A DNA stretch of 64,000 bases from Ulota crispa (Eukaryota > Streptophyta > Bryopsida > Orthotrichales > Orthotrichaceae): contig OY987244.1 of assembly GCA_963920765.1 (NCBI GenBank), positions 18,456,358 to 18,520,357 of the forward strand. The letters are read 5' to 3'. Shown in pieces: positions 3,512 to 64,000 of this stretch. Under the pieces are notes generated by a model that ran no database searches, was not told the DNA's origin, and saw only the letters and a list, made by a program, of their open reading frames with translations. Each line of letters opens with the position of its first letter. Within the stretch, counting starts at the first letter, position 1. The translations under genes were made by a program, and so were the position numbers.

Positions 3512-4355
3512 TAGTAATTTCCTCAATTACAATTGATTGTCATTCAGCATTTGGATCCTTGGAAAAACTTAACTAAATAAGACTTCTAAAAGTTGGTTCC
3601 AACAAAACATGCACAAACTGTAACAGTATCTTGTATCATAAACTTTATGAAATCATTTAGAAGGTTTGTTAAAATTTGTTGGCCTAGAAAATTAAATAAA
3701 AAGCTACCATTTGCAGTATTTTTTTCCTAGATACAAATATAATATTTGATGGAGAATTTTTTTTTTTGTCATCATGCAGTATTTAAAACTTAAAAACTCG
3801 ACAATGGCCGTCTATCACAGCTTTTCTAATTTCATAAAGAAAGAATTTTGATTTACAAAACTTTGTAAATTCCTCAAAAATTAAACCCCAAGTTTTGACT
3901 TTTTTACTTTTTATACCTATTTTCTGCACCACACTGTGTCCAAAAAAATAATTAGAATGCTCTAAGCAATACTGATTATATTGAATCAAATCATTAAAAG
4001 AAAAATGCTTTTACAAAAAATATTGTTGTTACACGCGTGCAGGTAACATCAATATGCCTTCAGCAAATTCCACACCACCATTACTTACTTCTTAACGAAA
4101 GATCTATGCCCATTTAGTTGCATATCAAAGTTCTTCATTTTGTATGCTCCCATTCAGCAACTACATGTGAATGTAATTTTAATTTTTGATTTTTAGAGAA
4201 GCAAACATCTTTTTTTTTGTAAATAAAATAAAATTTTAAGATTTTCTTTATGAAAATCTGAAGTTATCATGAATTTTTGAAAAAATGAAAATACTTTTTG
4301 TTGTACACAAAATAAACTAAATGTCTTTGGGTAGTTCATTATAGGCTTGCTTTGG

Positions 4356-60314: not shown

Positions 60315-61247
60315 AGGGTTGTATACATGACAACTCAGAAGGCCCTCCTCGTTTAGGTTTGATTGCAATAACTTCCGCTTGTTCAGGTCTGCTATTGCAG
60401 ATTTGCAGCCTATTGGAAAGTATGGTGTGACTGTCGTTTGTTGTAGATAGAAAAAGGTTTTTTGCGCTGGTAGCCATGTTGGTGCCATCTTATGTACAGT
60501 ACACGACTCATAACTTTCTATGGACACTGTTCAAGTCAAGGTCCACGAGAGATCAAGTTTCTCTTTGGACATGAGACTTTTACATTGATCCAACGCTCTT
60601 AGCCTGTCACATTAAGGCTCAAGCTCACTACGGAGGTTGGCTTCACCTCACGTTGCAGTAAAAACCTAGTAGTCGATTGTTGTAAAACTTCTCTGTTTTT
60701 TGAGGTTTCGATGTTGCTGAAATGGTAAATAGTTTGATATTTTATGCCGGGGCTGCTTTTGGAGTTGAATGTAGACGAAAAATTTATATTTTGGTACTTT
60801 CTTTTAAGGCTGTTTCAGCTTTGGTACATACTCGAGAATCGTTTCAGCTCAAAGTTAGAATTGTGAGTAGAGACATGTGAAGGTGAAGAGTGTGAGCGAT
60901 GCTAGGTGATTGTGTATGATTGTGTGGTCTTTGATATCTACTATTGCCATATGAAGAAATGGCCAAGCTGTTTAAAATTCTCACCTTTGCTGTAGAGTAA
61001 TTAGTTTTCGGTTCTGCATGCTTATGATGTTTGGCATGGAATCCCTGGTACAAAAAGACCTAAAAGTCTTGAAAGGGTTCGATTTCCTTGCAACGGTGTG
61101 GTTTGTTTTTTTCACAATTCCAACCCATGTATGTCAACTACTTTGTAAGGCGAAATCGTCCATTGTCAACACCTACCCAATGTTATAAGCTGGAGTGCTT
61201 CTTTGCATCTTAATGTTGTCAAAGATAAGTTGTGATGCTACCCATGA
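60315..61247. other. Phospholipase 3' region and spacer
   Basis: The first few hundred bases are presumably 3' untranslated. No further gene was recognised. Confidence 0.45.
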
Positions 61248-61550
61248 GGGGTACAACAAGCTTACAAACTGCCTATTTCAGGCATTCAGTTTTTGTAGTA
61301 AAATGTAAAATATGATTAGTACATTTTTGTCAAATTTTTTGTCATTGCATCCTTATGCAATCCCAATCAAGCATACCAAATTTCAGCTCCTAAAAATCAA
61401 AACTCCATTTTTGGTGAATTATTTTGTAAGAAATTCATGGTTTTTCATGATAATTGATTGGAAAATATTAGTGATGAATTTTTGAGATTTGATTCCATGG
61501 ATATGTAGGAAACATCCACACGCACATCATCCATGCTAAAAAGAACCCCC

Positions 61551-61807
61551 TTAAGTAACAAAAATTTGAGCTACAAAAGATTATGTGAAACTTGTGATAG
61601 GCCCAAAATTTGTAAAACATATAAATTTCTATGAAAATAAAATTTTGTTGTTTGACACAAATATTGTAATTAAGTTTGTATCTCTAAACATGACATTCTG
61701 TTTACTTGATGAAAATCAAGTTAAAAATTTTTTTAAAAAAAATTACAAAATTTAGGCCTACCACAAAATTCACATAATCTTTTGTAGCTCAAATTTTTGT
61801 TACTTAA
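61551..61807. mobile_element. TTAA-flanked palindrome A
   Basis: TTAA at 61551-61554 and 61804-61807 flank a palindrome of 249 bp with ends GTAACAAAAATTTGAGCTAC and its complement. It sits directly at the left TTAA of the next element. Its ends do not begin with CCC, so it is a different family with the same target. Confidence 0.8.
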
Positions 61808-62459
61808 CCGTAGACCGCCCAAGGGGACGGAATGTGGCCGCTATGCATTTTATTTTGAATTTTTTTGACTTTTATTGAAAATTAATTTAAGTCGTTATTT
61901 TTTTAAATTATTCTTATTAAAGTCTTGTTTTAGTATCAAAAATCCGATTTTGAAAATGAATGACTATGATTTGTCTATTCAAGATTTTGTGCAAGGGTGT
62001 CCATTGCAAATCTTCACTTTCTAGTGTTGAGAGCTCTTGGAGATGAGCCTCAAGTACACTAGAACTTGGTGCAACAATCACATTAGAAATTTAATTTAAA
62101 AAGTTGTAGAGTAGATTTTAAGAAGCCGTAAATTGATTAGGGTTAAACATGTTGTATTTTACATACTCATATTTTTTTTGACATCCTCAATTTTAAATTT
62201 GAGATGTGAAAAGAGGATTGAAAGACTTCAAATCACTTTCACAATTTTAACACCCTCTTCATCAAATGTTATAATTTTTCAATCCATAAGTGATATTGTT
62301 GTGTTTTCTTTTCATATGTGATCTCTAACATATCTAGTTTGAATTTGTACGGTTACAATTTATAAAAAAATGATGTAACTTATCAAAATGTTGCCATTTT
62401 GTTCATCCAAGAGCACATCTTGAGATATTGGAGAACGTCCGTGGGTGGTCTAAGGTTAA
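61804..62459. mobile_element. TTAA-flanked element B
   Basis: TTAA at 61804-61807 and 62456-62459. Ends CCGTAGACCGCCCA and the complement TGGGTGGTCTAAGG; 648 bp inside, with no recognisable transposase. The ends resemble, loosely, the CCCCTAAAGGACC type. Confidence 0.75.
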
Positions 62460-62907
62460 GGGGGTTCTTTTTAGCATGGATGTTTCCTACATATCCATGG
62501 AATCAAATTTCAAAAATTCATCACCAATGTTTTTCAATCAATTATCATGTAAAACCATGAATTTCTTACAAAATAATTCACCAAAAATGGAGTTTTGATT
62601 TTTAGGAGCTAAAATTTGGTATGCTTGATTGGGATTGTATAAGGATGCAATGACAAAAAATTTGACAAAAATGTACCAATCATACTCTACATTTTACTAC
62701 AAAATCTGAATGCCTAAAATAGGCAGTTTGTAAGCTTGTTGTACCCCTTTGTACAGTGCCTTGCATATCTTTACGCCCAAAACTCTCCTAGCCACACTCC
62801 AAAACAAGAAGCGGAAATCTTTGAGGCCCTATAGACACTCATTTTACATACCCAATCTTTGTTCCAACAATGAAGACACATGAGCTGCAGTTCTAGCATT
62901 GTTTTTT

Positions 62908-63190
62908 TTTTTTTGGCGATTTGGAGCAAAAAAGCACCAAATTTTTGTGACTGGCACCAAGCTTATAGAAAAAAAAACATGATTATTTGGATGAAATTGC
63001 CAAAAAGCTTCAAATTTTTTAAAAAAACTTGGATAAAATCGCCAAATTGTGGATGAAAACTAAATTATATACATGTATTATGTGCTAATATGATATTTTC
63101 TATCCAATATGTGGATGAATGTTGAAATTTGGAGCACCACTATAACATTTTAAATTGTCACTTTGGCACTTTTTAAAAAATGAAAAAAAA
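62908..63190. mobile_element. Damaged copy of the hAT-like element at 63231
   Basis: The segment from about 63003 to 63172 (AAATTGTGGATGAAAAC, CCAATATGTGGATGAATG, AGCACCACTATAACATTTTA) is repeated almost unchanged at 63330-63486 in the same direction. It is flanked by T- and A-rich tracts. Terminal CAGGG ends are not preserved, so the limits are approximate. Confidence 0.6.
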
Positions 63191-63199
63191 AAAACCCCC

Positions 63200-64000
63200 C
63201 TGAGTTTGAGAAGGGTATGGTGATTGGAATCAGGGCTTTTTATTTTGGCTTTTTGGTGCCAGATTGCACCCAAAAAAATCTGGCTAAAAAACATTTAAAA
63301 AAATGTCAAAAACCTTGGATGATTTTGCCACAAGCTTTCAATTTCTTTTTAAAAATTGGATGAAATCACCAAATTGTGGATGAAAACCAAATTATAAACA
63401 TATAATATGTACTTATGTGATATTTCCTATCCAATATGTGGATGAATGTAGAAATTTGGAGCACCACTATAACATTTTAAATAGCCACCTTCACACTTCT
63501 TAAAAAATAAAAATAAAAGCCCTGATTGGAATGTGGCGGTCGAGAAATTGCTGAAGAATTGGAGATGCCATGGCAGTCGGTGACAACTGTTATTGCAACT
63601 TATCACAATCGGAATAATGTTCTTTGCCTTACAACCCCCACCAAGCCGAGGAAAGTGTCAAAGCATGGTGTTTGATCCTTGGTTTGTTGTACAAAGTGCA
63701 ATTGTAGAGCTCCACTTGCAGAAATCACCCAAAATATTCCAGTTAAACTTAGCAAAGCTATTGTGCGTACGGTGCTTCATGGTGAGAAGATTTTAAGTTG
63801 TATTGCTGTGAAGATGCCATTCCTACTACTTATGTATCAAGAGAGACGTCTCAATTTTGAGTTAAAGAATTGGACAATCGACAACTAATCAAACATTATG
63901 TGGACCAATGAATTGTCTTTCAAAATTGGGTATAACTCCTACACAATTCAGGTATGGCAAAGTGCATATGAAACTTACAATTATGATTGCTTGGCACCAA
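63200..64000 (+). pseudogene. Tc1/mariner transposase relic, partial at window edge
   Basis: The frame from 63541 reads REIAEELEMPWQSVTTVI, a helix-turn-helix region typical of Tc1-like transposases. It continues through TKPRKVS, LAEITQNIPVKLSKAIVRT and YQERRLNFELKNWT. After the second stop it resumes with MWTNELSFKIG, corresponding to the WxDExxF catalytic motif with Asp replaced by Asn, and ends with SAYETYNYDCLAP at the window edge. In-frame stops occur at 63673-63675 (TGA) and 63886-63888 (TAA). The hAT-like MITE interrupts the start: EKGMVIG precedes it at about 63208, and a small frame difference remains after it. It is therefore not active. Confidence 0.8.
63231..63524. mobile_element. 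hAT-like MITE with 8-bp target duplication
   Basis: The ends CAGGGCTTTT and AAAAGCCCTG are inverted. The octamer ATTGGAAT stands on both sides (63223-63230 and 63525-63532), as expected for hAT transposons. It is 294 bp long and lies in the 5' part of the mariner transposase relic. Confidence 0.9.

Follow-up and report, generated by a model that had tools for sequence, protein, structure and literature searches.

A non-coding piggyBac-type MITE nested in a long-inverted-repeat element of a probable moss genome

The nested repeat described here very probably has two layers: an outer long-inverted-repeat element that was present first, and a non-coding piggyBac-type MITE (B) that then entered the TTAA on the right of the outer element's centre and duplicated that TTAA. 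It lies in a 64,000-nucleotide stretch of DNA (the window) on contig C3 of the 274.8-Mb assembly that was searched. Copies of the component parts, their boundaries, the duplication of TTAA by comparison with empty sites, and resident transposase loci with B-like ends were all observed directly. Copy counts given below refer to best-scoring subsets (for the 1,500-bp nested query, the best 40 of 8,116 first-look candidates were scored), pattern counts being exempt from this.

Organization of the nested element

The order of blocks, as read directly, is exactly that given in a preliminary description of the window: left arm, TTAA, A (249 bp), TTAA, B (648 bp), TTAA and right arm. The outer element as a whole, MITE-like and enlarged here by B, spans 61244-62751 with no strand assigned. 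Its left arm, which ends CCCCC (61248-61550, plus strand) and is defined by direct reading, complementarity and copies elsewhere, is followed by a TTAA (61551-61554, plus strand) that belongs to the outer inverted repeat and is no target-site duplication. The block termed A (GTAAC...GTTAC; 61555-61803, plus strand) occupies the centre of the outer element, with the inverted repeat entering it for about 60 bp before a loop, and does not represent an independent insertion. The next TTAA (61804-61807, plus strand), originally the junction of A with the right arm, is the left target-site duplication of B. B itself (CCGTAGACC...GGTCTAAGG; 61808-62455, plus strand) begins with the 5' terminal inverted repeat CCGTAGACCGCCCA (61808-61821, plus strand), for which many other copies have CCCTAGACCGCCCA, and ends with a 3' terminal inverted repeat that reads CCTTAGACCACCCA on the minus strand (62442-62455). 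Beyond it stand the right target-site duplication (TTAA, 62456-62459, plus strand) and the right arm, beginning GGGGG (62460-62747, minus strand).

Complementarity between the outer arms is 96% in a pair of 272 nt and 100% in a further 27 nt; a third inverted pair of 65 nt, which begins at the TTAAs and enters A, shows 92%. Since the arms, A and B are each present in many copies in the genome, the layout is beyond chance. There is no open frame of at least 150 aa in the nested region. Just downstream of it, at window positions 63005-63191 and 63332-63518, is a pair of 187-nt direct repeats that are 86% identical.

Position of A within the outer element

The preliminary description had taken both A and B for TTAA elements within a loop-less palindrome, and had A enter last, at a TTAA created by B. 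Such an order agrees with the succession of blocks in this single copy, but other copies reverse it. The query with A gave 945 candidates, of which 40 were scored and the best 30, the window copy included, were fetched with 1.5-kb flanks. Outer-arm sequence, sometimes partial or interrupted by an insert, flanks A on both sides in 30/30, and no free-standing A at an unrelated TTAA site was found among these 30 (from the 40 scored of 945 candidates). The window's B is absent from the right junction of A in all 29 of the others. Outer copies thus have A without B, which refutes the recency of A and makes B the later arrival. At the level of the genome, CCTTAA directly precedes 22 of 31 exact A ends; seven of the remaining nine are accounted for by the window, L019, L029, L035 and L040, all being between arms, and the last two (on C6 and C8) lie outside the copies read.

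The junctions themselves are also pertinent. In the fetched copies the commonest form is CCCCC-TTAA-GTAAC on the left with its mirror image on the right, and departures from it are mirrored likewise, with CCCTC/GAGGG in L019 and CCTCC/GGAGG in L021. The TTAAs that flank A are altered symmetrically in L015, L035 and L036, and the junctions of L035 (CCCCCTAGTAAC/GTTACTAGGGGG) are without TTAA on either side. A continuous inverted repeat explains mirrored variants of this type; two target duplications do not. Removal of A and B, each with one TTAA, was expected to leave a palindromic empty centre, yet the predicted sequence, CCCCCTTAAGGGGG plus five bases on each side, has no match in 275 Mb (24 bases, 12 from each arm, with up to 3 mismatches), though strongly diverged copies would escape this pattern and a long perfect palindrome is difficult both to maintain and to assemble. 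Entry of A as the last event is, from all of this, exceedingly improbable. With arms around A in 30/30 fetched copies and no match to the empty centre, the reading of A as a transposon in its own right is rejected; A makes up the middle of the outer long-inverted-repeat element and is not an insert.

A different possibility is that A was an ancient TTAA insert in an ancestral palindrome, with amplification of the combined unit then ensuring that every surviving copy has it. In many copies A does have a TTAA at either edge, and the ends of A form inverted repeats. However, the searched set yielded neither a free A nor an empty outer copy, the GTAAC ends of A differ from the CCC termini observed here in piggyBac-type elements, and a symmetric TTAA inside one continuous inverted repeat requires no insertion. 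An ancient insertion of A is highly unlikely, and A as an original part of the outer element is the reading followed below.

Ends and arms of the outer element

In four insert-free copies the outer element is approximately 872-875 bp long. The ends of the family read TGTA-YAGAGGGGTACAAC, with the left one eroded in the window copy. When 42 outer ends were counted, leaving out those with less than 88% identity or starting late, the T of the TA was kept in 40/42 and the A also in 40/42, with the preceding G in 39/42. Because the TA sits within TGTAC, TA and GTAC are indistinguishable as targets; the ends would fit either, and a Tc1/mariner-type origin is possible. MITEs with long inverted repeats, or of foldback-like type, that have a TA target are a known category, and the outer element has in common with them its long arms, short loop, TA at the edge and lack of any coding capacity seen, the difference being that its target could be either TA or GTAC. 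Outer-type ends with at most one mismatch number 32; their pairs are at most about 1.7 kb apart, and no coding partner was seen among them.

For 17 of 25 outer copies, the two arms resemble each other more closely than either resembles any other copy in the set (one was a tie and seven were the opposite), an extreme being L035 with 99.3% between its own arms versus 80.1% to another copy. This likeness, taken with the mirrored junction variants, suggests that arms may be homogenised within a copy. (L027 and L010 are listed with L035 among the outer copies in the arm comparison.)

Some outer copies have inserts of their own. In L024 (~1178-1500) an insert of about 320 bp, whose ends CAGTGGTGCC/GGCACTACTA adjoin TA, lies between the left arm and A, and from these ends it looks like a TA-target element within the same outer-family copy set. 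An insert of about 800 bp with ends GGCACAATAAGGGTACC/GGGGTACCTCAATTGTGCC is inside the left outer arm of L020 (~533-1334).

Insertion of B

The proposal of entry at TTAA with a four-base duplication, which did not survive for A, stands for B. At the right junction of A, the arm comes directly after a single TTAA in 23 of the 29 other copies (in 3 of them after a shift of 1-2 bases), whereas the window has TTAA-B-TTAA, so that occupied and empty sites differ by a duplication of four bases. Of the other six, one has a different insert (L026), and in five the junction is altered by base substitutions or a short deletion (L025, L031, L035, L036 and L037). The insert in the right junction of L026, TTAA-TCCCTAAACTCCCAA...TTGGGCGTTTAGGGG-TTAA, has ends TCCCTAAACTCCCAA/CCCCTAAACGCCCAA, and L029 has in its left junction a relative of B (82% over 586 bp) with one TTAA flank and one TTAC flank. 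Both are independent piggyBac-type insertions at outer-element junction TTAAs. Given that TTAA occurs 3, 6, 3 and 3 times in the ~875 bp of the four insert-free outer copies, three insertions in junction TTAAs do not by themselves indicate a special preference.

The flanks of B elsewhere are in keeping with this. Among 27 other copies read, TTAA is present on both sides in 23 (20 placed exactly and 3 after allowing an edge shift of 1-2 bases), on one side in 3 and on neither in 1, with the bases outside the TTAA varying from copy to copy. With all four bases retained on both sides in 23/27, a non-TTAA target for B is ruled out. Examination of flanks in other copies, which the preliminary description had put forward as a check for both blocks, thus found B mostly bounded by TTAA and, among the 30 copies fetched, A never apart from the outer arms. 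Most of the 27 copies have inverted-repeat ends of the CCCTAGACC type on both sides; those of the window's own B read CCG and CCT. The exact 14-base end CCCTAGACCGCCCA occurs at 68 places in the genome, 59 of them after TTAA, with a backwards-read control giving 1. TTAA plus CCCTAGACCGCCCA with up to 3 mismatches occurs at 3,965 places (versus 86 for the backwards-read pattern), a number that is not the copy number of B since it includes ends of related families.

Resident transposases and the assignment of B

B has in common with the piggyBac superfamily its TTAA target and four-base duplication, and the B family shares with it ends that begin CCC, as piggyBac-family inverted repeats do. TTAA duplication alone is no proof of piggyBac, as Kolobok and Sola3 likewise produce it, and B might on that ground be a TTAA-targeting element of another superfamily. 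Such an affiliation is very unlikely, however, in view of B-like ends at loci whose PF13843 transposase is a relative of piggyBac and piggyBat.

With the PF13843 (DDE_Tnp_1_7) profile there were 120 matches, all above the curated cut-off (116 of 527 candidates were scored), and 10 of the 120 are in stop-free stretches. Exact B ends were not found near a transposase, the closest pair between the 59 exact ends and the 116 transposase positions being 20 kb apart. For TTAA plus the B end in its less exact forms, 1 of the first 100 listed places (of the 3,965) has a transposase within 10 kb, namely TTAACCCTTGACCGCCCA at C2:15046195, which is 2.5 kb upstream of a match at C2:15048720. This locus, L076, was reached from the one-mismatch list of B ends. 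It has TTAA-bounded ends, CCCTTGACCGCCCAAGGGAC upstream and CCCTTCACCGCCTAGCCATG downstream (read inward), that are 5.1 kb apart. The transposase match contains 2 internal stop codons. The locus has an open stretch of 361 aa, for which the PF13843 match is at 2.3e-64. The acidic motifs TCDE, VDNFF and GVDLVDQ, which presumably carry the catalytic aspartates, align with those of piggyBat, a member of the same family. Against solved proteins, the 361-aa stretch gives 2.4e-25 with piggyBat (9c0f) and 6.4e-24 with piggyBac (6x67).

The likeness of B to L076 is limited to the ends, comparison of the interiors not being convincing. In the best case, a B copy at C4:1240314 that is without one G present in the window's B, 24 of 25 bases agree with the L076 end, TTAA included; for the window's B the match to the L076 5' end is weak (83% over 30 bases, E 0.015). 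The L076 end occurs at 82 places, 2 of which have a transposase within 10 kb. The second, on C6, has TTAACCCTTGAGCGCCCAAGGGGCA upstream of a PF13843 match at 12304000-12305067 (minus strand) and TTAA with CCCTTGAGCGC on both sides, with most of the intervening stretch being outside the fetched sequence. A side observation is that 33 of the 82 places have a second TTAA-bounded end, TTAACCCTTGAGCGCCCAAGGGGCC (e.g. C1:2809299 and C2:4618647), which probably marks another piggyBac-type MITE family.

At five further transposase loci, TTAA-bounded CCC ends are plausible for three: CCCTTTAGGGACC/CCCTTTAATGACC on C8, CCCCTCATCGCC/CCCTTCATTGCC on C3 and CCCCTAAAAGCCCA/CCCCTAAAGGCCCA on C7, where there is more than one candidate for the left end. 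No convincing TTAA-bounded end pair was present at the loci on C4 (L069, L071) and C5 (L073). For two divergent PF13843 loci with open frames, L097 (C1:1180709-1181995) and L098 (C8:19570986-19572215), the sequence fetched contains no convincing inverted repeats next to TTAA; these loci may be either domesticated piggyBac genes or copies that have degraded. Where bounded, the transposase loci of this genome measure approximately 5-9 kb, in contrast to the original piggyBac at about 2.5 kb.

The TTAA target, the four-base duplication, the CCC... inverted repeats and the occurrence of transposase genes inside elements whose ends resemble those of B together assign B to piggyBac. The earlier suggestion to this effect is upheld, and the transposase search proposed with it has given two loci (L076 and that on C6) with B-like ends at TTAA. 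On these sequence features B is a non-autonomous piggyBac-type MITE which, lacking the coding capacity of piggyBac, would need transposase in trans. In the sequence of events envisaged, the outer element (arm, TTAA, A, TTAA, arm) would have been present first. B would then have entered the TTAA that joined A to the right arm, duplicating TTAA only, with a piggyBac-superfamily transposase from one of the many resident copies recognizing CCCTAGACCGCCCA ends and joining them to TTAA. The identity of the transposase that mobilised B, and activity of any copy whether present or past, are matters of inference.

piggyBac in land plants

Two open stretches in the window match magnesium-protoporphyrin ester cyclase, one above and one below the curated cut-off, and these matches support a photosynthetic host. 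PiggyBac-type MITEs of insects are short, non-coding and multicopy, with TTAA duplication. B has all of these features in common with them and with the angiosperm counterparts, PiggyBac being one of seven MITE superfamilies in an angiosperm MITE review (PMC10004981). The host of B is, in contrast to the insect and angiosperm hosts of those MITEs, apparently a seedless plant.

The preliminary description placed piggyBac outside the cut-and-paste superfamilies normally annotated in plants. This accords with at least one land-plant transposon review, of 2022, which has six plant TIR superfamilies and never mentions piggyBac (PMC9033089). It does not accord with the angiosperm MITE review, with another review that counts PiggyBac as one of the class II superfamilies of plants (PMC10794571), or with a table for the genome of the fern Ceratopteris that gives 1,230 PiggyBac repeats (PMC6890710). 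Among open-licence papers, none was recognisable from its title or abstract as dealing with piggyBac in the genome of a moss. For a land plant, in this case probably a moss, an abundance of piggyBac is unusual, though it has precedents in print, and from this comparison the membership of B in a known superfamily is well supported, in what is probably an unusual host group.

A single nested copy can give the wrong insertion order unless it is compared with other copies. The occupied site and the many empty ones, the two further independent inserts and the transposase loci with similar ends are clear sequence evidence for past mobility and for abundance of piggyBac-type elements in what is probably a plant genome. 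Given the 120 transposase matches, the several kinds of TTAA-bounded CCC ends and the thousands of ends from one MITE group, it is moderately probable that there has been a large piggyBac expansion in a land plant, probably a moss, and that piggyBac may be a major cut-and-paste lineage in some bryophytes which the usual list of superfamilies overlooks.
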